Assembly: GCF_964204645.1 (NCBI RefSeq)
Contig: NC_134033.1
Span: 12,960,155 to 13,024,154 of the forward strand
Direction: 5' to 3'
Origin: Tubulanus polymorphus
Lineage: Eukaryota > Nemertea > Palaeonemertea > Tubulaniformes > Tubulanidae
Length of the DNA: 64,000 bases
Positions 32,895 to 58,726 of the stretch are shown here, in pieces. Below the pieces are notes generated by a model. That model saw only the letters and a program-made list of their open reading frames with translations. It ran no database searches and was not told where the DNA came from. Made by a program: the position numbers and the translations under genes. Numbering within the stretch: position 1 is the first letter of the stretch; each line of letters begins with the position of its first letter.

Positions 32895-35800
32895 TTAATT
32901 CGATGGTCGCGGCGTTGCGCATAGGCGGAATGGTTTTGGGCTGCGAACCACGCCAACCACAGGGTCTGATATCAACGCGTCGGCGTCTTCACCCGGTGCC
33001 AGTTTCACAGTGAACGCCTGCATCAAAGATACGTAAAAAATGAACAGTTCCATTTTCGCCAGTGATTCACCTGCGCACTGCCTTTTACCTGAAATAAACA
33101 AAAGACAAAAGAGACTGAATAATTGAATATCCTTGAAACATTTTAATGCAAAATGAAAGTCTTAGGTAACTTCCAACATTTCTTTCAACGACATATAGTA
33201 TATCGTGTGCAGACCGAACCCTAGTGACAAGAAAAACTTCCTTGAAAAATACGCACCGATCGAGAATACAGCAATTTTATCCCTGTTTATCGGCTGCCCA
33301 TCGCTGTCGATAAAATTGCTGACATCAAACTGATCCGGATTCGGCCAGACATTTTTATCTCGATGTAACGCCCACAAATTCGCGAGCACGAGCGTGTCCT
33401 ACGAAAAATAAACAAAGCGAATCAAATGCGAAAGTCAACTACGAATAATCGTTCAGTTTAACTAATAATTTTCGCGATTTTCTAAGTGAGTTTAAGGTCT
33501 CGATTTCGTACTTTTTTAACAGTGTATCCTCGCAGTGTTGTAGTTTCCGTAGCTCTGTGCGGTACTAACGTCACCAGAGTGCCGACTCTCAAGATTTCTA
33601 AAATCACCGCATCTGTGTACGGCATTTTCAGCTTGTCTTCGATACTGGGCAGTCGATCTCGACCAATCACCGAGTCGATCTCTTCTTGAACCTTGTTCTG
33701 AAAAATTTATTGAAAACCCACGTAGTCAATAACGAGACTGTGTTTTTGTCGTCTGGATATTTTCAGCCTTATTTGGCTCGACACCAAAAACTATGTTAAT
33801 AAATCACGACAGGGGTCCTGGTGTCGGATAGCCCTTTTGATATCACTGATTTCAAGATATCAATGACAATGGATGATTCTAATGGTCCATACCTGCACCT
33901 CGGGGTTTGCGCACATTAGTAGCAGTGACCATCGAAGCGATGTGGAAGTTGTTTCCGATCCAGCTACGAACATTTCAAACACTGTTCTTCTCATTTGATG
34001 ATCTGAAAAATGCTCTACATCGTGAATTACATTCTATCAATTAAATCAGTTATCATCGATTATCGCATTGCGAATGAACGAGCGCAAAACAGCTTTAGTC
34101 AAAGTTACCGTTGAATATTTCAGTTTTCTTCCCGGCATTCTCTTGAATACGACGCATATACGCATGCGTGAAGTCGTTGACGTTATTTGGATCGAATGTT
34201 CTCCGGTGCTCGTCGATGTACGGCCCAATTACATTCTGGATGTACTTGATGTTAGCTATGAACTGCTTAATGCCTGTTACATCGCCCGGTAGGTGGCGCA
34301 GAAATGATAATCTGGACATGCGTAATACGTTCCTAGAAACGTTCGAAGTGATCGTTCTCAAAATCGCTTTCGAAGTTTCCGAATAGTAACTTTGATTTTT
34401 GGCACCGAAAACTAAACAACAGATGACGTTGGAAACAGTGACACCTATCGTTAGCTTCGGGTCGAACGGTTGACCGTGTTGCTCGTTAAAGATGTCGATT
34501 AGATGACTGGCTTCATCTTGAATAGACGGCACCATGGAGGATTTACCCATACCCAGATCTCTCATGGCGTTCAGCGTAAAACGCCGCTGTTCTTTCCAGA
34601 CTGGGCCATCGGTCGCAAGCAGTCCTGGAAATACAGCAGAGTATAACATGGATGAAATATGTTATGATAATTTATTCTAATTGGATGTCCGATGAAAGCG
34701 AAAGAACCAAAATTTCGATCCGTAGCTTAAACCACTTTTCTAACTCTGGGATTCTGTCATTGAACACGTTTTTGTAAAATCCGTGGATTAATGCATTGTA
34801 TCTAATTGATTAACTTTAAGCCGGGCGTAGGTCGACCTTGCGACGCGACGCGATCGCAGTGAATTGCGTCGCAATGAGTCGCAAGGCCGACCTACGCCCG
34901 CCTTAAAGTGGGGCCCTTAACCCGGACGTAGGTCGGTCTTGCGATGCGATGCGATCGTCGCGTTGCATCACAAGTGGAGGTGCGGTGAAGTCGGTTGCGA
35001 CGCGGTTGTCAGCGATTTGTGCGACTAGTTGCTTCCAGTCGTTGAAGTCGTAGAAGTCCCATGTTCTACTTTCTGCGACGCGACGCGACCGTCGCAACAG
35101 ACTTACGCGCTCAGTCGCACACAGTCGCAGACAATCGCGTCGCAACCGACTTCACCCCACCTCCACTTGTGACGCAACGCGACGATCGCATCTCGTCGCG
35201 TCGCAAGGTCGACCTACGTACGCCCGGCTTTAGATGCAGAATATTCCTAAGTAAGCCTCAACAGTTTCTTCAAGCTAGGATAAAGCATACTTTGTATAGG
35301 CTATTAGCATATTTTGTATAGGCTATCATATCTCTGAGAAACCTACCGGCATTTTTTATCACGTCACTACGTAAATAACTAAATGGTTTTCCGGTGATGG
35401 CGTCTCCCTTCTTCTGGAACCCCTCGCGGACTGCGTCGTGCGTGTTCAGAATGACGTTGCCTCGCCCGAGCAGATTTATCGCGTATACGTCACCGTACTC
35501 GTCTTTCAACGCGGTCAGCATTTGATGCGGTAGTTTAAAACCTGGCCGAAACAGAATCAGGATTTGTTAACAAAACGAAGAAGAAGATTTTGAAGTCGTT
35601 TTCCATAGACAGAAGTCGTTAATTGAATTGACGATGAAATCCATTGAAGAAAAACTACCATTCTGATATTTCATAGCAATTGAGTCGAAAGTCTCGATAA
35701 GTCTATTCTCTATTTTCTTTTCAGGATTTAAATTTGTTCCGATCACTTCCGAAATGAACGACTTTCACAAAGAAACGACTGTAGCACACAAACTTACGAC

Positions 35801-37694: not shown

Positions 37695-40572
37695 TTAATT
37701 CGATGGTCGCGGCGTTGCGCATATGCGGAAAGGCTTTGGGCTGCGAACCACGCCGACCACAGGGTCTGATATCAACGCGTCGGCGTCTTCACCCGGTGCC
37801 AGTTTCACAGTGAACGCCTGCATCAAAGATACGTAAAAAATGAACAGTTCCATCTTTGCCAGTGATTCACCTGCGCACTGCCTTTTACCTGAAATAAACA
37901 AAACACAAAATAGACTGAATAATTGAATATCCTTGAAACATTTTAATGCAAAATGAAAGTCTTTGGTTTAGGTAACTTCCAACATTTCTTTCAACGACAT
38001 ATAGTATATCGTGTGCAGACCGAGCACTAGTGACAAAAAAACTTCTTGAAAAATACGCACCGATCGAGAATACAGCAATTTTATCCCTGTTTATCGGCTG
38101 CCCGTCGTTGTCGATAAAATTGCCGACATCAAACTGATCCGGATTCGGCCAGACATTTTTATCTCGATGTAACGCCCACAAATTCGCGATCACGAGCGCA
38201 TCCTGCGATAAAGAAACAAAGCGTCAAAATGTCAAACTCAACTACGAATACTAAACGAGTTTTAGTTCTCGATTTCATTGATTTCCGTACTTTTTTAACA
38301 GTGTATCCTCGCAGTGTTGTAGTTTCCGTAGCTCTGTGCGGTACTAACGTCACCAGAGTGCCGACCCTCAAGATTTCTAAAATCACCGCATCTGTGTACG
38401 GCATTTTCAACTTGTCTTCGATACTGGGCAGTCGATCTCGACCAATCACCGAGTCGATCTCTTCTTGAACCTTGTTCTGAAAAATTTATTGAAAACCCAC
38501 GTAGTCAATAACGAGACTGTGATTTTGTCGTCTGGAAATTTTCAGCCTTATTTGGCTCGACACCAAAAACTATGTTAATAAATCACGACAGGGGTACTGG
38601 TGTCGAATAGCCCTTTTGATATCACTGATTTCAAGATATCAATGACAATGGATGATTCTAATGGTCCATACCTGCACCTCGGGGTTTGCGCACATTAGTA
38701 GCAGTGACCATCGAAGCGATGTGGAAGTTGTTTCCGATCCAGCTACGAACATTTCAAACACTGTTCTTCTCATTTGATGATCTGAAAAATCGGATTATTA
38801 TTGTATAAAACTGTTAACATTGCTGACCACTGTTTTTTGAGATTTGATATCGTAGGCTTATCTTACTGAATCTGGGGCTGGTTGCGCAGTCCAAACGAGG
38901 GCTTTTATCTTATGACTGATCTGAAGTCGTTAGATTGGCCATAACTAAGTCGGTCTTAGACTCGCCTTGAGTCTAAGCGGTAGATATGGAACCAGTCCCA
39001 TGTTATTCTCAAAATTGATTAGTTCGATTAACTCCGCTAAGGAAGTGAGTTCAACTTTCTAAATCAAAGTTACCGTTGAATATTTCAGTTTTCTTCCCGG
39101 CATTCTCTTGAATACGACGCATATACGCATGCGTGAAGTCGTTGACGTTATTTGGATCGAATGTTCTCCGGTGCTCGTCGATGTACGGCCCAATTACATT
39201 CTGGATGTACTTGATGTTAGCTATGAACTGCTTAATGCCTGTTACATCGCCCGGTAGGTGGCGCAGAAATGATAATCTGGAGTTGCGTATGATATTACTA
39301 GAAGCGTTCGAAGTGATCGTTCTCAAAATCTCTTTCGAAGTTTCCGAATAGTAACTTTGATTTTTGGCGCCGAAAACTAAACAACAGATGACGTTGGAAA
39401 CAGTGACACCTATCGTTGTCTTTGGATCGAACGGTTGACCGTGTTGCTCGTTAAAGATGTCGATAAGATGACTGGCTTCATCTTGAATAGGCGGCACCAT
39501 GGAGGATTTACCCATACCCAGATCTCTCATGGCGTTCAGCGTAAAACGCCGCTGTTCTTTCCAGACTGGACCGTCATTCATAAGCAGTCCTGGAAATACA
39601 GCAGAGTATAAGATGGATGATATAAGCTATGATAATTTATTCTAATTGAACGTCCGATGAAAGCGAACCAAAACCAGAATTCCTATCCGTAGTTTTAAAC
39701 TATCTTTTTTTAAGTTAAAGATTCTGTCGTCTCTGCAAAATCCGTGGATAATTGCATCGATTAACTTTAAGCGGTGCCCTTTAATGCAGAAAACCCTCAG
39801 CAGTTACTCGGAGCAAGGATAAAGCATATTCATTAAGCCAAGTATCTTATGAATCTTACCGGCATCTTTTATCACGTCACTACGTAAATAACTAAATGGT
39901 TTTCCGGTGATGGCGTCTCCCTTCTTCTGGAACCCCTCGCGGACTGCGTCGTGCGTGTTCAGAATGACGTTGCCTCGCCCGAGAAGATTTATCGCGTATA
40001 CCTCACCGTACTCGTCTTTCAACGCGGTCAGCATTTGATGTGGCAGTTTGAATCCTAACAAAAGTAGAATCAAGGTTTGTTTAAAAAAAGAAGATTTGAA
40101 GTCGGTTCTCACATAAACGAGTCACTCTCTTTTGAAGGAAAATGGCCATTGACGAAAATGTATCATTTTCATAGCTCATAGCAATTGAGTCGAAACGTCT
40201 CGATAAGTCCACTCTCCTATCTTATCTTCAATGTGAACCTATTTCTTTCTTTTATTTAATTTTGTTCCGTTCACTTCGAAATCAATGACTTTGACAAAGA
40301 AACGACTGTAACACACAAACTTACGACTTCAATAAATCGCGCCTTGACGCTCATGTAAGATATGAAATCAAGCCAATACCTGTTTTCCACGGACATCCAA
40401 TAAAAGGAAGAGATATCCACGGCCCGGGAAGCGATTTGGTCGGTACGCCGTCGGTCGCTTCCGGTTCCGCCCGCCAGACAATCATCAGCAACGAAAGCGA
40501 AACGAGAAGAATAGCGACCAAAAACACGGTAAATTCCGAGAAACTACCGAGAAAGTATTCCATGAATGACAT
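37695..40572 (-). CDS. Cytochrome P450, CYP2-type, tandem copy B (7 exons)
   Basis: Paralogue of copy A, lying just upstream of it on the same strand. Exons in coding order: 40572-40380, 40054-39860, 39589-39074, 38781-38672, 38476-38291, 38202-38061, 37888-37695. Every exon has exactly the same length as in copy A and the product is again 511 residues. The membrane anchor, WKEQR, AGSETT, EILR and FSIGKRQCAG are all kept, so this copy also looks functional. Differences cluster in exon 1 (for example [14 protein letters not shown]), at the start and middle of exon 3 ([18 protein letters not shown]) and in a few scattered sites. The end of exon 3, exon 5, and exon 7 are almost identical between the copies. 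A MITE-like element sits in intron 3 (38872-39000) and is absent from copy A. Confidence 0.93.
38872..39000. mobile_element. MITE-like palindromic element (family beta) in intron 3 of P450 B
   Basis: The ends GGGGCTGGTTGCGCAGTC and, in reverse, GGGACTGGTTCCATATCT are inverted copies. The inside repeats the TTAGATTGGC and GTCTTAGAC words of the elements at 25.0-25.5 kb. Intron 3 of copy A is only 106 bp and has no such element, so it was gained by B or lost by A after the duplication. Confidence 0.65.
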
Positions 40573-42626: not shown

Positions 42627-44752
42627 GATTCGGTCTTTCACGTACTGGTCTCATCAATCCAGGATTCATGTGTTTGAATCCTGGTAGTAGTAGCCAGTCA
42701 GTCTTTCACTGGTCTCTCATCAATCCAGGGTTCATGTGTTTGAATCCTGATGGTAGCAGTCAGTCAGTCTTTCACTGGTCTCTCATCAATCCAGGGTTCA
42801 TGTGTTTGAATCCTGATGGTAGCAGTCAGTCAGTCTTTCACTGGTCTCTCATCAATCCAGGGTTCATGTGTTTGAATCCTGGTGGTAGCAGTCAGTCAGT
42901 CTTTCACTGGTCTCTCATCAATGCAGGGTTCATGTGTTTGAATCCTGGTGGTAGCAGTCAGTCAGTCTTTCACTGGTCTCTCATCAATGCAGGGTTCATG
43001 TGTTTGAATCCTGGTGGTAGCAGTCAGTCAGTCTTTCACTGGTCTCTCATCAATCCAGGGTTCATGTGATTGAATCCTGGTGGTAGCAGTCAGTCAGTCT
43101 TTCACTGGTCTCTCATCAATCCAGGGTTCATGTGTTTGAATCCTGGTGGTAGCAGTCAGTCAGTCTTTCACTGGTCTCTCATCAATGCAGGGTTCATGTG
43201 TTTGAATCCTGGTGGTAGCAGTCAGTCAGTCTTTCACTGGTCTCTCATCAATTCAGGGTTCATGTGTTTTAATCCTGGTGGTAGCAGTCAGTCAGTCTTT
43301 CACTGGTCTCTCATCAATTCAGGGTTCATGTGTTTGAATCCTGGTGGTAGCAGTCAGTCAGTCTTTCACTGGTCTCTCATCAATTCAGGGTTCATGTGTT
43401 TGAATCCTGGTGTTTGCAGTCAGTCAGTCTTTCACTGGTCTCTCATCAATCCAGGATTCATGTGTTTGAATCCTGATGGTAGCAGTCAGTCAGTCTTTCA
43501 CTGGTCTCTCATCAATCCAGGGTTCATGTGTTTGAATCCTGGTGGTAGCAGTCAGTCAGTCTTTCACTGGTCTCTCATCAATCCGTGGTTCATGTGTTTG
43601 AATCCTGGTGGTAGCAGTCAGTCAGTCTTTCACTGGTCTCTCATCAATCCAGGGTTCATGTGTTTGAATCCTGATGGTAGCAGTCAGTCAGTCTTTCACT
43701 GGTCTCTCATCAATGCAGGGTTCATGTGTTTGAATCCTGGTGGTAGCAGTCAGTCAGTCTTTCACTGGTCTCTCATCAATCCAGGGTTCATGTGTTTGAA
43801 TCCTGATGGTAGCAGTCAGTCAGTCTTTCACTGGTCTCTCATCAATCCAGGGTTCATGTGTTTGAATCCTGGTGGTAGCAGTCAGTCAGTCTTTCACTGG
43901 TCTCTCATCAATGCAGGGTTCATGTGTTTGAATCCTGGTGGTAGCAGTCAGTCAGTCTTTCACTGGTCTCTCATCAATTCAGGGTTCATGTGTTTGAATC
44001 CTGGTGGTAGCAGTCAGTCAGTCTTTCACTTACTGGTCTGTCATCAATCCAGGGTTCATGTGTTTGAATCCTGGTGTTAAGCAGTCAGTCAGTCTTTCAC
44101 TGGTGTCTCATCAATCCAGGGTTCATGTGTTTGAATCCTGATGGTAGCAGTCAGTCAGTCTTTCACTGGTGTCTCATCAATCCAGGGTTCATGTGTTTGA
44201 ATCCTGCTGGTAGCAGTCAGTCAGTCTTTCACTGGTCTCTCATCAATCCAGGGTTCATGTATTTGAATCCTGATGGTAGCAGTCAGTCAGTCTTTCACTG
44301 GTCTCTCATCAATCCAGGGTTCATGTGTTTGAATCCTGATGGTAGCAGTCAGTCAGTCTTTCACTGGTCTCTCATCAATCCAGGGTTCATGTGTTTGAAT
44401 CCTGGTGGTAGCAGTCAGTCAGTCTTTCACGGGTCTCTCATCAATCCAGGGTTCATGTGTTTGAATCCTGGTGTTAGCAGTCAGTCAGTCTTTCACTGGT
44501 CTCTCATCAATCCAGGGTTCATGTGTTTGAATCCTGGTGGTAGCAGTCAGTCAGTCTTTCACTGGTCTCTCATCAATGCAGGGTTCATGTGTTTGAATCC
44601 TGATGGTAGCAGTCAGTCAGTCTTTCACTTGTCTCTCATCAATGCAGGGTTCATGTGTTTGAATCCTGATGGTAGCAGTCAGTCAGTCTTTCACTGGTCT
44701 CTCATCAATGCAGGGTTCATGTGTTTGAATCCTGATGGTAGCAGTCAGTAGG
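42627..44752 (+). repeat. 66-bp minisatellite, about 32 copies, open in one frame
   Basis: A 66-bp unit is repeated head to tail about 32 times; a typical unit reads GFMCLNPGGSSQ followed by SVFHWSLINP. The first unit (from 42,627) is degenerate. Because 66 is a multiple of three, an open frame runs through many units. It is broken by TGA at 43067-43069 and by small insertions near 44,030 and 44,080. Variation between units falls mainly on amino-acid-changing positions (CCA/GCA/TCA for P/A/S, GGT/GAT for G/D), which argues against selection on a protein. No signal peptide, start context or splice sites tie it to a gene. I treat it as a satellite, not as a CDS. Confidence 0.9.
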
Positions 44753-47689: not shown

Positions 47690-48260
47690 ACACCCCTGTG
47701 TTGAGTGTTCATCTCACACCTTCTGTGAGACATGTTCATCCCCTCACTCCATCTACTTTTTCTGTGAGAACATCTCTCACACCTTCTGTGAGACATGTTC
47801 ATCTCTCACACCTTTGAGACGTTCATCCTGTCACTCCCTGTTTAAGACATGCTCATCCCTTTACTCCATCTTTGAGACACGTTCATCTCTCACACTTTTG
47901 AGGCGTTCATCCCTTTACTCCATCTTTGAGACACGTTCATCTCTCACACTTTTGAGGCGTTCATCCCCTTACTCCATCTTTGAAACATGTTCATCTCTCA
48001 CACCTTTGAGACGTTCATCCTGTCACTCCCTGTTTAAGACATGGTCATCCCCTTACTCCATCTTTGAAACATGTTCATCTCTCACACTTTTGAGGCGTTC
48101 ATTCCCTTACTCCATCTTTGAAACATGTTCATCTCTCACACTTTTGAGGCGTTCATTCCCTTACTCCATCTTTGAAACATGTTCATCTCTCACACTTTTG
48201 AGGCGTTCATTCCCTTACTCCATCTTTGAAACATGTTCATCTCTCACACCTTTTTCAGAA
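47690..48260. repeat. 54-bp minisatellite, irregular copies
   Basis: The unit is 54 bp, built from two related halves (words GTTCATCTCTCACACTTTTG and TTACTCCATCTTTGA). The last four units are nearly identical, while earlier ones vary in order and length. On the + strand it gives an open frame of 164 codons from 47,814 with no recognisable domain, so this is a repeat and not a gene. Looser copies of the same motif run back to about 47,560. Confidence 0.85.
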
Positions 48261-50524: not shown

Positions 50525-53500
50525 ATGGCGACTCGCGGCGCGATGCACGTCGTATTCCCGAGCGACGTCGAAGCGTGGCCCGGTATCCGCGACGCGTTGC
50601 TGCGCCTGAAGACGATCGACGACGACGACATCGACGAGTTCGTCAAAAGTCTCGAGATCATTCACAAACTCGTGCACGGGACGAGTTTTCCGCCGGAGCG
50701 CGAGAATATGATCCTGCGTAAATGCGTGTTTTACGGGGTGAAGCGGTTTTTCGACAAGGAAGCGTCCGCCGAAGAGCGTCGTCGGTTCTTCGAGGAAACG
50801 TTGCCGTTCGTCGTCGACGCCGCCGTCGATATCGAGAATCGTAAACCTCCAAACGGTCTTCAATACAGTCTTCAAAGTGAACGTACGTAAAACGCAAAGA
50901 TTCAGGCTTCTATTTCTTGAAAGATCTGAAACTTAAAACATTGGCGAAGAACTTTCGTCTAAATTTTCAATAAATACCAATAACAGCTCATAGAAAAAAA
51001 CAAATTTCAGATCTTAAGTGAAGATATTTATTTGACTCTGGATCCAGTTCTTCAGATGCGTGGGTTTAATTTCACTCTGAATCCAGTTGCACTGTGGTGT
51101 GGGTTTAATTTCACTCTAAACCCAGTTCCACAGTTGTGTGAGTTAAATGCGATTCTGGATTCACTTCCACAGTTGAAAGAGTTTCATTTGACTCTGTATT
51201 CAGTTCCCTCAGATGCGTGGGTAAAATGCGATTCTGGATTCAGCTCCACTTTTGTGTGGGTTTAATGTTACTCAAGCCCTAGACATCCCTATCCTATTCT
51301 ACTGTATGGTTCTTGCTGGTTATATATCGGTACAAAATGCTTATAACTCATTTAAACTGTTTAACTGTATTTTCAGCCGGTGACGTAGAATTGTCGAGAT
51401 CGTTCATTTTATCGGTAATCGCTTGTGCCTTTCTCTGCCTGTTTCCGAGGCGACCAAAAGAAATCGAGGCCAGCCTGAATGACATCAACTTCAATAACTT
51501 CTTTCATTATTTACCGAGGTATGATTTTGTCTATTGTTTAGACACCGCAGCATATCTTTTAGCTTTTACACGGTGCATCATTTATGAAGTATGAATTCAT
51601 TTACAGGGGGCGAGGAGTATGTAGAAAATTGGTCATTCTCCCTACATTCATTATGCTTGAAAATTACCGAAGTTTTGTGTACCGGTAGTTTCTAACAGCC
51701 CTTATTGCTGAGAGGTTTTAATTTCTCATGTTTATTTTCAGTACTCCTCAAAGCGGAAAATTGAGGTGCATTTTGCATTATTTCGAACGAGTTTCGAAGA
51801 TGGAAACGGAATTGAGCGGCAAAGTGACTTTCTCCAGACAGGTATGTACGTACTGGGTTGTAGGTAAAAATCCCCAAATCATCATACTAGGTAAAAATCC
51901 CTGAGTGGCGACTTTCTAGAACATTTCGAAACAGGTTATTTCTCCTATTCATTTGCAATAAAACTGCAATCTATACTAAGGCTAAACAAAAATGATACCT
52001 TGTTTCTCCGCAGCGGCCGGATCATTTTTGTAAAATATGATAAAATTTATAAACAGTTCATTTCTATAGCGGCCGGGTCTGTTATGGTGAATTGATCACG
52101 ATTTTAAAAAAAAGTAATGTATAGGGTAGATAGGCGGCCGGCCGGGTCAACATTTAAGCTCAGCAGAGCGGAGAAACAAGGTATCAATTTTTTTGGCCTA
52201 AACATGATATTATCGATACTGGGTTTGAATCCCACTATAACCGTTGTTGTGTAGCAGACAAAAAATGAGCCCGAGCGAATTCGGGCGGCTTGAGGAGTTA
52301 TAGGCAGGGCAGAAACGTGTGGCTTGAAAAGTAATAGGGTAACCCCTCGAATAAAAAGTTGATTACTTTTCCAGGTTCTTCCCGATAGCGAGAAGCTAAC
52401 GTTGAAGCTACTGTCGGACAGCGTTCGGCCGTTGTGTCCGTTATACGTCGATAAACACGGCAAAATCGAAGACTCGGGATCTCACACCGTTCAAGTAAGA
52501 GATCGGCGCGTTCATGAGAAAACAATAATAAATGCCCGCTCTGTACCTTAATTTGCAGGGAAAGAGGTTGAAAATCAGCAAAATTCCTTGTTTGTACTTA
52601 ATGAATGCCTCCTGCCTGATTCAAATAGTTTTCGTCACCACTTTCATGCGCTATATCTCGTATCGATTGTTATTTTGATAGGTAGATTTTGCCAATAGTT
52701 ATATCGGAGGTGGAGTACTTCACGTTGGCCGTGTTCAGGTAAGCTTTCTATTTCACGATGTCTTCATATCTGTTAGAGTAGAATCTGCCTTGCTCGATAG
52801 AGGTTTGGAAATATTTCGCTGAGTTGAGAATCTACGAATTTACTTCAGTACAAAATTTACCAAGTTGATAGCTGGTCCAAGTAAGGAAGAGTCTACTGTA
52901 GTGACAACTAATAATGATGCCCTTTCATTCATTGAGATTTCTAATTTTACCCACAAATAATATAATAATAATTTTTCTTGCGGTGATTGGCAAATTTAAA
53001 AGTTGACAAATTCAAATTTCTGAGCTACATCCATCTTGAAAATTTCTCATCAGAATCTTTGAATTTAGATGTCTGTCTTGTAAAATTCCGACCAAATTAT
53101 ACAGTACCCATTCATATGCTATGTCCAAATTAGTTGCACACCGTAATCTTCCGCTAAAACATCGGCCATTTTGATTACAATTTCAGGAAGAAATTCGATT
53201 CTGTTTGAGTCCAGAGTTGATCGCGTCGATGTTGTTCATGACGTGTATGGAAAAGAATGAAGCGATTGTTATTCGTGGTTTTGAACAGTTCTCTGAATAT
53301 TCCGGTTATTGCGATTGTTTACGATTCGCCGGTGATAAAATCGACGAAAACCAGGTAAAAATGAACTCATTTCACAGTCGTGTCTGGATATAGGGTTTAG
53401 TTTGGCTGCTAGTATTTGGTTGAACTGAACTTAGATTGTAGGTTTAATGCATCTCTGGATCATACAGTTCCACGTTGTGTGGGTTTGATTTGACTGTGGT

Positions 53501-56500
53501 TCCAGTTCCATAGATTTGTCGGTTCAATTTCACCCTGGACCCAGGACCATCACATTTTTGTGGGTCTGATTAAACTCAGGGGCCAGTTGCTCAAACGTTA
53601 GTTAAAGATAACCAAGTGGATAAATACCATAGCAACAATGTACTTTCAATTGTCACCATGTGAACTATCCACTGGTTAACTCTAACCAACTTTTGAGCAA
53701 CTGGACCCTGAAAGTTAAACATTTATGGTTTTAACTTTGCTTTTTACTAGTTCAACAAACCCAAAGCTCTGCACTACAAAACTGTGGCCAAAGTCGATGA
53801 AATTAAATGCTAGTGAGTGGTATCCAAGTTGAAATATTCATGTGTTCTCATTTTATTTTCCTATATTAGCGCGATGAAGAAGGGAACATTCACTCGTGTC
53901 TATGCGCGATCGACGCTATACCGTACATGTGGGGTAACAAGTACGCGCAGTACTCCGGGTCGAATGTGCTTCGCGAAATCAACAAGGCGTACGTCGGATT
54001 TTCTTCAACAGCCGCGGTGGCGACCCCCCGCGACGAGACTGACTGCTTGAGAAAAAGAAAACGTCTGCGCGATCGACTGTCCGAATCTTCCGAGGAATTT
54101 TATAGCGCTCCCGAAAGTTTAGATGATGAAGGTAATGGATGTAGAAAGACATACTTGACTTGAGTTCCACAGTTCTACAGTTTGTGATTAAATTTGGCTA
54201 ACTTATAGCGATCACGTCCCGAGAAATGACCCACAATTTGACGTTAAAACAGTTTAGGTTAGGGATGTGTAACTTAGGGGGTTGGAAAATTATGGAAAAT
54301 GTGTAAGAAAATGGGAAATCTGTAAGAACCCTGAAATAGTTCCAGCGTTTCTCTGTAAATGGCGGTACTTTCTCATAGAAAATGTCCTGACCTTGTGGCA
54401 TGAAAACTAAACTGTGAAGGTGTCTTATATGAATGAACGTGCTATTTTTTCAGGTGGGCCGGATACAGCCGAGTCAAGTCAAGGGAAGGTAAGGCCACCA
54501 ATCTTCTCATCTAACATACCATCATCGCCTGTACGTTTGCACTTTAACACTTCACCCGTGTTTCACACTTCTGAAGTCGTCCCATCGTCCGAAAAACAAC
54601 AACAACAACAACACCCGACTGCCGCAGCCTGCTCGGCGTATCCCAGCCTGCTCGATATCGAAACGATGCGTTTAGAAAATGCTCGGCGACGCGGTTCGAA
54701 CCTGAGCGATTGCGGCGCGTCGACGACGAGCGGCGGCGGCAGCTCGCGGCGGAGCAGCTCGCGTCCGAGTTGCGAGTTCTCCGACTTCGAATCGTGGGCG
54801 AGCAGCTTCCGCCGGCGCAGTTCGAATTTGAGCGATCTGTCGTCGTCGCGACGGAGCAGCAGCAGCACGCGTTACAGCTCGGATTTCAGCTCGGAGTTCG
54901 AGGAATATTACGAATCGTTTCAACGACAGGAACATCGAAAAATACAACACGAGTCGATCGTCGAGGAAAGCGCCGTTCCGTTCGTCGTCGATTACGCCGG
55001 GAATCTGGTCGCGAACGCGCCTGAGGAGAGTGCGTCTTCCGTCGAGGCCTCCGGGGGCAGCGGTATGGCGGTGTTCGATGCGAAGCAGCCTCAAATCGCG
55101 AATATCACGCGTCCGAAAGCCGTGCGAGTGACGTCGAGACACGTCGGGCAGGCGCCGTTTCTACCGCCATTAACCGACACGCAGAAATACTACGGGCGCG
55201 ATGACACGGACAGCAGCTCGGAAAACAGCCCGACCCACAGCTCCGCCGACAGACGTCGCAGACACCGGCTGCGAGTGGCTTCCGAAAGCGAACGATCGAC
55301 TTTAACCGGTGAAAGTCCGTATTTCTACACATCCATCGATTACCATCAGAGATTCATCCCGAGTTCCGAATTTATCCCGTCGCGTCGAAGCTCGTCGCGG
55401 TCCGAGCCGATGGACAGCGCCTTCAAACACGGGTCAACGATTTCGGACATCAATATAACGGACGACGGTCGATTTCACTCGGATGATCACGACTCGGATA
55501 TCGATTTAAACACGCCTCAGAACGTTCACGACGCGTTCGCGGATCAAATCGCGAAATCGATGATCACAGACGCCGTCGGGAATATCATGTCGTTTACGCG
55601 GCAGCAGCAGCAGCCGCAGCGCAGTTCATCCAGCGATTCGTCCAGTGAAGCTCTCTCGATCGCCAATCGCATCGTCAGTAAACTTTTCGACGATCTACAA
55701 GAGGAGTTCCGTCAGAGTATTCCCGACTCGATGAAACTCGAAGAGAAAGCCGTCGTCTGCGGGAGTAATTCGCAGCCGACGATCGCGCCGAAAATCGTCA
55801 TTTCGCAACACGTAACGCCGGCGGCGACGGCGAGTTTAGACACGTTCGTCGATGATTTCGTCGCGCAAGCGCTGTGCGAATCGGCCGCCGAACTCGGCAA
55901 CGCGGAGAACAGCTCATCGTCGGACGTGGCGACGCGATTGAACGTAAATCTGACGTCGCGTTATAGCAAAATGGTGAACGAAAGCGTTTCGTACGAAGAG
56001 ATCTATCGTTACGAAGGCGAACGAAGGTCATTCACTCGTAAAGACGAAGACGCGTACGAAAGCGTAAACATCGACCGGTATTTCGATCATCTGGTCGGGA
56101 AAGCTTTAGGCGACGTTTATAAGAGTTTGGGATATCGTAAAACGACCGGCGTTCAAGGTTACGCGGATAGTTCTTCCTCGACGGGCAGCAGTAGCGCGGC
56201 GAGCAGCAGCGGCGGCTCGCAGTGTTGTAAATATCTCGACGTGCACTGGATGTCGATGAGTCCGTCGACGAATTCGTCGTCGGCGAGTTTGACGTCGTAC
56301 GCGCGACGTAAAGCCGCGCGTAAACACCGCCGCGAGCGCATCAAATCGAACAGTTTCAGCAGCTACGGCGAATTCGAGAACGCCATGGACGACCAGAAGT
56401 CGATGCGACGTAACAGCGCCGGTACTTTCGTTGATCCGTTGCTGTCGCGGTTCGCCGAGGAGTTACAGCGCAGCGACCCGAATAGCCCGTCGTTAGAGTT

Positions 56501-58726
56501 GTACGGTGACGGCAGCGTCTGCTCGACATCGCGTCGCGGCAGTCGCGATTACGACAAGAGAGATGCCGGCGCCGTGCCCTTTGAGGTGGAATTATGCCGC
56601 ACTCCCGATTTAGATATCGATCCTGTGGCCTTATTTCCTCCGCTCGGCACCGATTCCGAGTTGGAACCGTCGCTGTTCTTAAGCGGGAACGCGAATGACG
56701 CCACGGAGAAGTCTCGTCATCGTCGGTGTCGACGTCATCGCCGCGCGACCTTGAAAGCGTTTTATAAATACGCGAAGCAATTGTCGAAAACGGTGATCAA
56801 AGACGCGATCAAAACGGTGACATCGCGCACGAAAACGACGAACCGGTTTACGGACGCGTTACGCGTGTTCGGCGGTGATTTAGTCGACGAAGCGTTTCAC
56901 GAGGCTTTAAACGATGTACGCGTGCGCGGCGGCCGGTATCGAAACGATGACGTGATCGCCACGCGTTTTACGAATATGGAGGAGTTCGCGAGGCGTCTTT
57001 GCGACGACGTTTTACATGATGCTTGTTTCGTAATAACCGGATCGTACTTTCCGACCAGTTCGCCGCCGTCTGCCGTGCGACTCATGCAGATCGACATCGC
57101 CGACGTAGAACGGTTGAAGGTCTGTATTTGATTATCGATTACCCCTAGTATTCGTTCTCGAATCCGTGTTTCTTGTTTTTGTCGTCGGTGTTTCACCAGT
57201 TTTTGTGAACTGATTTACGATTCTTGTCGACGTGTCTTCCAAATTCTTTCTGTACTCTTATGAAGTTATGTTGTCTCATCAGTTAACCCAGTCTTTTGAA
57301 GTGTGATATATATTCTGTTTTAATACTCAACAACATTATTCAGTAATGGTGGTGGTGGTGGTTCATATCAATCTACAGCTTTTAACAAATTGATGGTGTA
57401 CCGGCCAGTAGAACATGTACTTAGTCAAAGTTTCATATCATCAATCTTTTTAACTCAATGCCAATGCTCACTGCGAATTTAGGCTTCAAAATTCTAATTT
57501 GCCCTTTGAAGTGTCTGGAAGCCACTAATGTTCATGTTTGCAGCCCTCTGCCAAATCTGCCCTTTTCAAATTCAATGCCTATTCCAAGTTTTAGGTCAAC
57601 CTCTTTCAAAGAATCCTAGATCTCCCCTTGTCTAACGTAAACATTCTGCCTAATCTTGCTTGAATTTAATGAAAAAACAATTCTTCATAATGGCCAATCC
57701 GTATAGAAAATACGTCTTACACTTTAGAATTAAATACAGATTGTTGTTTAGGTTCATATTCTTTGGCGTGATTTATACTTGTCTTCGGTAGAAGCCCTAC
57801 AGCACACTAGCGCACCTGGTGGAACCTCAACTGCCGCAGTAGTTCTATAATTGTTTCATCTGCTGCTCTAATTATTGTTATGCTCATCTGATGAATATGT
57901 TTCTGTCGATAATATATTTCAGGCTTGGCCGATAGCTACCGGAAACTGGGGTTGTGGAGCATTTGGTGGAGATCCTCAACTGAAAGCTATCATTCAGTGG
58001 ATAGCTGCGTCATATGCCAGTTCGTCGGCCATGATTTATTACACTTTCCAAGATCCACGCGTTGAAAAGGTAGGAATAAAATTTCATCGGCTTCAAATGA
58101 TTCTGATTTAATCGAAATTGCAGATCTTCAAAAGAATAATTCAAATCAAGGTTACTATGAGTAACTAATAGTGCTGGTGTTTGCTTTGAAAGTTTTTAAT
58201 AACGTACCAGCACTATTACACTGGCAAGCAACGATACACCAGGCATCTGCCAGGTTTGCCAGTGCTTAAATATCTTCATTTCTGTTAGAATTCGAATCAA
58301 CTTACCCAATTCTACGTATGCACGCAGCTAAAACAAGGGTCTAGCAAATTTTGAAATTTCTGAGCATTTTCATAGAATTGCTGTTGACTGCTGTCTTAAT
58401 TAGTTGTGGGTGAAAAACGTGCCCTGAAAACTATTGCCATTGTATTTTCGAAAGGGAACGGGAAAATTGCGACGGGAGCGCGTGCTCCTATCTGGATCCT
58501 CCAGCTGGTGTGTGCCGCCGTGTACCTCATTGATAATCACAATACTTACTTCATTTTTCAGTTTCCGGACGTCGTTAATTTCGTGCGCGGGAACAAACTG
58601 ACGGTGAAATGGATTGTGGGTCGCGTGCAGGAATACTGTCGCGTCGCGTTAGACGAACACGAACAACGCGACGAGATCACGACGCAATTGTTCGATTTCT
58701 TGTTGAACTCGGACGACTCGCAGTAG
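50525..58726 (+). CDS. PARG: Poly(ADP-ribose) glycohydrolase with a ~936-residue insertion in the catalytic fold (11 exons)
   Basis: Family role: hydrolyses ADP-ribose chains made by PARPs. Exons: 50525-50882, 51377-51518, 51742-51841, 52375-52494, 52682-52738, 53187-53354, 53751-53792 (end uncertain), 53870-54131, 54454-57119, 57923-58069, 58562-58726; product about 1408 residues. Residues 1-200 match the PARG accessory domain (FPRRP, INFNNFF, GKVTFSRQ). Then come VDFAN, the signature GGG-x7-QEE (249-261, catalytic Glu pair kept), EQFSEYSGY, CAIDA, NKAYVGF, ATGNWGCGAFGGD and YYTFQD. The family order is complete, so activity is likely. It starts at the accessory domain, without the long N-terminal region of human PARG. 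The exon 7 donor is awkward: the strong site at 53813 breaks the frame, while weak sites at 53793 or 53784 restore it. Introns hold MITEs. Confidence 0.92.
51025..51285. repeat. Tandem 36-44 bp repeats in PARG intron 1
   Basis: About six imperfect units built on GGGTTTAATTTCACTCTGAA and CCAGTTCCACAGTTGTGTG. The same words recur in PARG intron 6 (53,430-53,575) and at the ends of the inverted repeat at 60.7 kb, so this is a family and not a private array. Confidence 0.7.
51980..52203. mobile_element. Terminal-inverted-repeat element (family gamma) in PARG intron 4 (between exons 3 and 4)
   Basis: The left end GGCTAAACAAAAATGATACC, followed by TTGTTTCTCCGC, is mirrored by GCGGAGAAACAAGGTATCAA ... 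TTGGCCTAAAC at the right end. The interior carries GCGGCCGGG and TAGGCGGCCGGCCGGG words. Related copies lie at 26.1 kb and 62.0 kb. Confidence 0.75.
53430..53575. repeat. Copies of the intron 1 repeat in PARG intron 6
   Basis: Three to four degenerate units (GGTTTGATTTGACTGTGGTT, CCAGTTCCATAGATTTGT and similar) matching the array at 51.0-51.3 kb. Confidence 0.6.
53578..53710. mobile_element. MITE-like hairpin in PARG intron 6
   Basis: The left end CAGGGGCCAGTTGCTCAAAC pairs with the right end in reverse, CAGGGTCCAGTTGCTCAAAA. The arms are about 40 bp and enclose a short centre. It lies just before exon 7. The terminal style resembles family beta but the interior differs. Confidence 0.65.
54454..57119 (+). 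other. PARG: PARG exon 9: Ser/Arg-rich insertion with repeated AKAP-like helices
   Basis: This 2666-bp exon adds 888 residues between NKAYVGF and ATGNWGCG, where vertebrate PARG has a short loop. With 43 residues from exon 8, which include a basic RKRKRLR run (390-396), the insertion is about 936 residues. Seen: a Q-run near the start; RRGS, RRSS and RRNS kinase motifs; Ser-rich blocks; His/Arg clusters. Spaced amphipathic segments lie at 55536-55595 (QIAKSMITDAVGNI), 55653-55709 (NRIVSKLFDDLQEEF), 55836-55898 (DDFVAQALCESAAEL), 56070-56129 (DHLVGKALGDVYKSL), 56847-56918 (GDLVDEAFHEALNDV) and 56976-57036 (RRLCDDVLHDACFVI). These fit the hhxxhhxxhhxxh pattern of PKA RII-binding helices. PKA anchoring is inference. 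Exon phases are 1 in and 0 out, so the exon cannot be skipped in frame. Confidence 0.8.

Follow-up and report, generated by a model that had tools for sequence, protein, structure and literature searches.

Does the gene at this locus encode an enzyme that turns over ADP-ribose and at the same time anchors PKA, or is its likeness to the A-kinase anchoring proteins of some other origin? A preliminary description of the sequence had proposed a PARG with a long insertion, in which a series of AKAP-like amphipathic helices and PKA consensus sites would recruit PKA, or another docking/dimerisation protein, and be phosphorylated by it. We followed up this proposal in a window of 64,000 nucleotides (the whole stretch of DNA analysed here) from the nemertean Tubulanus polymorphus, and in the genome from which it comes.

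A PARG gene with an interrupted macro domain

The splice model was read by eye and checked by script. It gives a + strand PARG gene of ten exons, with the coding part at 50525-58726 and GT-AG introns, that reads through 1394 residues without a break. The coding part of exon 1 (50525-50882) and exons 2 (51377-51518), 3 (51742-51841) and 4 (52375-52494) were placed by the splice model, and alignment further located VDFAN..GGG in exon 5 (52682-52738) and the catalytic EE (human 755/756) together with SEYSGY (human Tyr792/795) in exon 6 (53187-53354). Exon 7 (53870-54131) continues the macro domain as far as REINKAYVGF, where it is broken, and then encodes residues 1-43 of the interruption. The remaining 889 of the 932 interrupting residues come from a single large exon, exon 8 (54454-57119, 2666 bases), which lies within one open frame (54411-57131). 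The macro domain resumes at AWPIATGNWGCGAFGGD, restarting in exon 9 (57923-58069; ATGNWGCGAFGGD...YYTFQD; PARG_cat_C E 3e-20). Exon 10 (58562-58726; splice model and alignment) encodes a C-terminal tail with the AKAP-like end QLFDFLL and runs up to the stop codon. The interruption thus falls after the NKAYVGF helix and before the ATGNWGCG strand. Exon 7 joins exon 8 in phase, and a transcript without exon 8 would be out of frame because the upstream phase is 1 and the downstream phase is 0.

Pfam profiles detected PARG_cat_N in exons 1-7 (residues 81-199; 89.1 bits, E 3.3e-25, cut-off 25.6) and PARG_cat_C (cut-off 26.3) on both sides of the interruption, at 175.6 bits (E 1.3e-51) before it in exons 1-7 and at 70.4 bits (E 2.2e-19) after it in exons 9-10. 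The equivalents of human Glu727, Asp737, Asn740, Glu755, Glu756, Tyr792, Tyr795, the GAFG loop (873-876) and Phe902 are all present; the roles of the catalytic and ligand residues of human PARG have been described (PMC3519477). Judged from its sequence, the gene is a PARG by family membership, and the catalytic residues suggest that its product may hydrolyse poly(ADP-ribose). A basic run in exon 7, RKRKRLRDR (protein residues 376-384, about 54050-54076), just ahead of the FFAT motif described below, is a possible nuclear signal.

We searched the host genome (268 Mb, 77 contigs) for further copies. A bantam microRNA match in it, barely over the threshold (62.9 vs. 61 bits), points to a protostome, as bantam is protostome-specific. 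PARG_cat_C matched at two loci, the insert-bearing gene and a gene on contig C4 (G000:C4:26176800-26181300, L009), which is a canonical PARG without insert and reads FVNSGVAAKHLSAIATGNWGCG at the interruption site. Canonical PARGs (human PARG and the C4 gene) have the helical and macro domains and the same catalytic residues as the insert-bearing PARG, whereas the distance from GF to [IV]ATGNW is 12 residues in them and 935 (932 plus AWP) in the insert-bearing gene. The C4 gene is close to human PARG, scoring 111 bits against it over the C-terminal part, vs. 48 bits for the insert-bearing gene. Two tandem-repeat stretches between exons of the C4 gene are open in all three gene-strand frames and have a protein-like reading. 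When exon 8 was used as the query, its sole match in the genome was exon 8 itself, and therefore there is no sign of a spread repeat.

Elsewhere in the window, two near-identical open frames on the - strand (34095-34661 and 39051-39626) are likely a tandem duplicate; we take them, by their look, to be a CYP2-type cytochrome P450 exon. A minisatellite at 42649-44749, whose 66-base unit is repeated 31.8 times with 96% matches, has long open stretches on the + strand and is probably not coding. Another tandem array, nested and with periods of 54, 108, 138 and 192 bases, lies at 47785-48254.

Helix segments, docking-like motifs and candidate phosphosites in the insert

Six or more segments with paired hydrophobic residues had been noted in 55536-57036. 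They are there, and those quoted share the one open frame that holds exon 8. Seven were taken as helices 1 to 7: FADQIAKSMITDAVGNIM (55536-55589), IANRIVSKLFDDLQEEFR (55659-55712), FVDDFVAQALCESAAELG (55845-55898), YFDHLVGKALGDVYKSLG (56079-56132), YAKQLSKTVIKDAIKTVT (56769-56822), FGGDLVDEAFHEALNDVR (56868-56921) and FARRLCDDVLHDACFVIT (56985-57038), all on the + strand. They roughly fit F/Y-x-x-x-[LI]-[VAS]-x-x-[AVM]-[LI], with small departures in helices 2, 3, 6 and 7. The hydrophobic moment is ordinary for helix 1 (49th percentile) and helix 3 (35th) and high for helix 2 and helices 4-7 (88th to 99.5th). Predicted helices had been named as a check on the proposal. AlphaFold2 with a single sequence put all seven segments in helices (helix 4 except for its last two residues), a result that weighs little because the mean pLDDT was 38.5 and 280 of the 540 model residues were helical. 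Helices 5-7 were again helical, at very low confidence, in a second, shorter AlphaFold model.

The generic pattern hh..hh..hh has seven matches in the 889 residues of exon 8 vs. a mean of 0.56 after global shuffling or 0.70 after local shuffling in 45-residue blocks, and the published consensus LxxxAxxIVxxAIxxA (PMC3682517), once widened, has five vs. 0.13-0.14 expected; the p value for the hh..hh..hh excess (0.0005, the floor of 2000 shuffles), like the other pattern p values, is optimistic because the segments had already been seen when the patterns were drawn up or widened. Six of the seven hh..hh..hh matches are helices 1-4, 6 and 7, and the other is FVDPLLSRFA at 56427; helix 5 is absent from this set and is matched by other patterns. 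As regards the docking consensus that marks AKAPs as a functional class, the insert holds the five widened matches and the RIAD-like helix 5.

The human AKAP4 used for comparison is a reconstructed sequence, written out after the window had been seen, and not a database entry; it was checked with Pfam, where AKAP_110 (PF05716) gave 383 bits to the whole sequence and 120.5 bits to its tail. The density of hh..hh..hh per 1000 residues was 7.9 in exon 8, 8.2 in the reconstructed AKAP4, 5.6 in the gene's own PARG N part (two in 359 residues) and 2.0 in an E. coli control (37 of the 45 coding features in one stretch, eight having been dropped as cut, tiny or membrane). With polar spacers required, the E. 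coli density fell to 1.2 vs. 7.9 in exon 8. The pattern h..hh..hh..h is denser in the PARG N part (5.6) than in the insert (4.5). FxxxLVxxALxxA with polar spacers has six matches in the insert, none in AKAP4 and two in E. coli (0.16 per 1000), and the widened consensus with polar spacers has just one in AKAP4. The seven hh..hh..hh segments of AKAP4 do not cover its one RII_binding_1 site (215-232), and the paired pattern alone is therefore no marker of a PKA site. As far as can be read from the sequence, the run of such helices makes the insert resemble AKAP4 but does not in itself point to PKA docking.

The helices had been compared with those by which AKAPs dock the RII dimer, and a profile search did not bear this out: Pfam RII_binding_1 (PF10522) matched none of the seven, while all three control peptides were listed, RIAD and Ht31 passing the cut-off and AKAP-is falling short of it. 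We then slid six published anchoring peptides (PMC4526808) along the insert and scored them with BLOSUM. The RI-anchoring disruptor RIAD (LEQYANQLADQIIKEATE) resembles helix 5 (FYKYAKQLSKTVIKDAIK), scoring 36 (global shuffles p 2.5e-4, local shuffles p 4e-4; 0.0015-0.0024 after correction for six peptides), although RIAD matches RII_binding_1 and helix 5 does not. Helix 5 is the best candidate for a PKA-RI site. AKB-RI also fell on helix 5 (p 0.075 global, 0.030 local), and helix 7 was the place for AKAP-is (p 0.010 global, 0.060 local) and super-AKAP-is (p 0.005 global, 0.005 local). Ht31 (p 0.129, 0.119) and AKB-RII (p 0.522, 0.483) did no better than chance along the insert in global and local shuffles, respectively.

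Pfam scans of the insert, by exon and by fragment, gave sub-threshold matches only. SmAKAP on helix 5 (E 0.055 in a fragment scan, below the cut-off) disappeared when the peptide was scanned alone, and was given little weight because Ferredoxin_N on helix 6 (best E 0.0037) scores better in the same fragment. A further sub-threshold match, to Ribosomal_L37, lies over a basic stretch. Neither exon 8 nor helix 5 had a useful match in the PDB.

The insert had also been called rich in RRxS sites, and this holds. RRx[S/T] occurs nine times in it, vs. 1.7 (global) and 2.0 (local) expected by shuffling, and nowhere else in the protein. Five of the nine, two of them overlapping, lie in 54687-54860, and the other four start at 55383, 56406, 56532 and 56739 (+ strand). 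These sites, together with helix 5, suggest that the protein may bind PKA and be phosphorylated by it. In the host genome we presume that one docking-domain locus is RII-like (L010) and another RI-like (L011). Two more RIIa-domain loci on contig C6 (L012 and L013) are possibly ropporin or SPA17-like, and would be alternative partners for the helices.

Ahead of the helices, exon 7 ends with a phospho-FFAT-like motif, EFYSAPE (54095-54115, + strand, found by pattern), in an acidic/serine flank (LSESSE-EFYSAPE-SL) followed by a few residues. In shuffle tests its p value was 0.005 for a strict pattern, which was written after the motif had been seen, and 0.09 for a looser definition; for these reasons the motif is supportive and not decisive. 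It was reported previously that a protein called AKAP110, also SKIP/SPKAP, carries lSSiEE-DflTaSE-HL, and that AKAP11 has DFVTA-E near its amino-terminus (PMC3261905). The former motif was assigned to SPHKAP in another work, where Phe212 and Thr214 were needed for co-localisation with VAP and the motif sits in the half without the RI-anchoring sites (PMC10460453). SPHKAP thus resembles the insert-bearing PARG in having a phospho-FFAT motif before the helices. MSP domains, the VAP-type domain, were found at two places in the host genome, and their identity as VAP is putative.

Relation to AKAP11, SPHKAP, AKAP3 and AKAP4

Human AKAP3, AKAP4, AKAP11 and SPHKAP were reported to end in the C-terminal half of the PARG macro domain (PMC11377751, 2024). 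On the reconstructed AKAP4 tail PARG_cat_C was weak (E 0.0044) and below its cut-off. We compared AKAP4 with the C part of the insert-bearing gene and with canonical PARGs, which match it far more weakly. hhalign gave E 2.6e-7 for the insert-bearing gene vs. 0.0066 for the C4 PARG and 0.0086 for human PARG. Smith-Waterman z scores were 13.3 vs. 5.0 (C4), 4.4 (human) and 5.4 (mouse PARG), and over the last part beyond the shared core only they were 3.1 vs. 0.8 (C4) and 1.5 (human). When the insert plus the C part was compared with whole AKAP4, the single significant alignment ran from NWGCG/NNQCS to the C-terminus (QLFDFLL/QLLDWLL), the next having E 0.6. This alignment starts seven residues past the PARG resumption, and the PARG-like part of AKAP4 therefore begins where the PARG of the insert-bearing gene resumes. 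A z score of 19.2 between the window and a reconstructed C-terminus of AKAP11, which AKAP_110 matches at 37.9 bits, was given no weight, because that sequence was written out after the window had been seen.

The insert proper did not align with AKAP4 (p 0.13; hhalign E 0.6), and the two agree only in hh..hh..hh density. Nor did the end of the insert (helix 7) align better than chance with the last helix region of AKAP4 (p 0.76). Scanned as separate pieces with Pfam, the gene gave no AKAP_110 match at E up to 10, in a program whose filters remove most weak matches. As the PF05716 model is not reached, we do not class the gene in the AKAP_110 family. An AKAP_110 search of the host genome gave no match, nor did its controls, and so it does not prove absence. 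The insert-bearing gene thus differs from the AKAP_110 family in that its pieces fall short of the AKAP_110 and RII_binding_1 models, and from AKAP11, SPHKAP, AKAP3 and AKAP4 in that it keeps the front half with the catalytic residues, where those have the PARG C half only.

A gene of lampreys and hagfish offers the nearest published parallel. In Table 3 of Kariyayama et al. (PMC11788884), CGG08 PARG_homolog g7740 combines PARG_cat and AKAP_110, a domain pair classed as cyclostome-specific, i.e., not found in the outgroups, which number 10 invertebrates, a limpet among them, in their ranks. In the accessible text of that paper the entry is tabulated without discussion, and cyclostome-specific pairs are read as domain shuffling. 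Judged by the published table entry, the cyclostome gene resembles the insert-bearing gene in combining an AKAP part with a PARG catalytic domain. Our literature search, at the level of titles and abstract openings and with most subscription journals outside its coverage, found no other published PARG-AKAP protein. The earlier remark that no PARG of this kind had been described was nearly right, this one table row being the exception.

Taken as a whole, the preliminary interpretation came through in part. The likeness to the AKAP11/SPHKAP/AKAP3-4 group is supported by evidence that the preliminary description did not have: the PARG-derived C-termini of those AKAPs, the C half closer to AKAP4, the phospho-FFAT motif and the cyclostome PARG-AKAP_110 gene; helix 5 also resembles RIAD. 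The reading of the helices as RII-type PKA sites is not supported, as none of them matches RII_binding_1.

The same results could come from a divergent PARG paralog with a disordered, Ser/Arg-rich insert, whose helices serve self-association, another D/D protein (ropporin, SPA17) or nuclear targeting, the AKAP likeness being convergent or due to chance and PKA not being docked at all. We regard this as rather unlikely. Such a paralog would fit the seven helices that RII_binding_1 does not match, the insert that does not align to AKAP4, the generic segments of AKAP4 that differ from its RII_binding_1 site and a PARG N part nearly equally rich in such segments; it fits less well with the RIAD-like helix 5, the C-terminal AKAP likeness, the FFAT motif and the cyclostome gene, all of which are independent of helix counts.

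AKAP-like material might also have been put into PARG genes separately, here and in cyclostomes, with the gnathostome AKAPs not among the descendants. The classification of the PARG_cat/AKAP_110 pair as cyclostome-specific (PMC11788884) agrees with this, but the rule behind it requires an AKAP_110 Pfam match below 1e-3, which the pieces of the insert-bearing gene also lack; invertebrate genes of this kind would therefore escape it, which can make the pair appear restricted to cyclostomes. A PARG-derived C-terminus in all four human AKAPs (PMC11377751) and the coincidence between the start of the PARG-like part of AKAP4 and the point where PARG resumes here also argue against independent gain, and we consider it improbable.

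It is very improbable that exon 8 belongs to a nested or alternative AKAP-like transcript of exons 8-10 only, with the PARG half made separately. Exons 8-10 alone would indeed be laid out like AKAP4, with the PARG C half behind the helices, but the phases of exons 7 and 8 leave no full PARG without exon 8, and the FFAT motif is in exon 7. A separate nested gene was set aside as unlikely from the exon phases.

Proposed origin and function

The reading that we favour, and hold to be probable, is that the gene product is a complete PARG with an AKAP-type scaffold module breaking its macro domain, and that the gene is most likely the protostome counterpart of the AKAP11/SPHKAP/AKAP3/AKAP4 family, predating the loss of the front half. 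In the simplest history, a PARG duplicate would have acquired the scaffold in an early bilaterian. The whole form would have been kept in the present lineage, and perhaps in cyclostomes, whereas in jawed vertebrates it would have been cut down to the scaffold plus the PARG C half, so that the AKAP family would derive from a PARG duplicate.

The protein would most likely work as a VAP-tethered scaffold like SPHKAP or AKAP11, but with a complete PARG built round it. The phospho-FFAT motif may tether it to VAP on the ER, and one or more helices, helix 5 first, may dock PKA regulatory subunits, probably of type I. PKA anchored in this way could phosphorylate the RRxS clusters. The PARG domain has its catalytic residues and could bind or hydrolyse poly(ADP-ribose) at the same place; one activity might then regulate the other. 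We put forward more tentatively, as possible but not yet probable, the stronger form of the favoured reading, in which the protein is a living, uncut representative of the ancestral type of AKAP11, SPHKAP, AKAP3 and AKAP4: a PARG that is active, is anchored to the ER through VAP and gathers PKA by means of several helices.

If this is true, the psychiatric-risk gene AKAP11 and the AKAPs of the sperm fibrous sheath would be broken PARGs, and in the bilaterian ancestor a single protein would have combined cAMP signalling with ADP-ribose turnover. It would account for the half-PARG ends of the four human AKAPs, the AKAP part having arisen inside a PARG whose front half was later lost, and it suggests that AKAP11 may have kept the ability to sense ADP-ribose through its leftover PARG half. 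Where the AKAP11/SPHKAP family came from would become testable in invertebrates, and PKA anchoring and poly(ADP-ribose) removal could be studied jointly in one protein.
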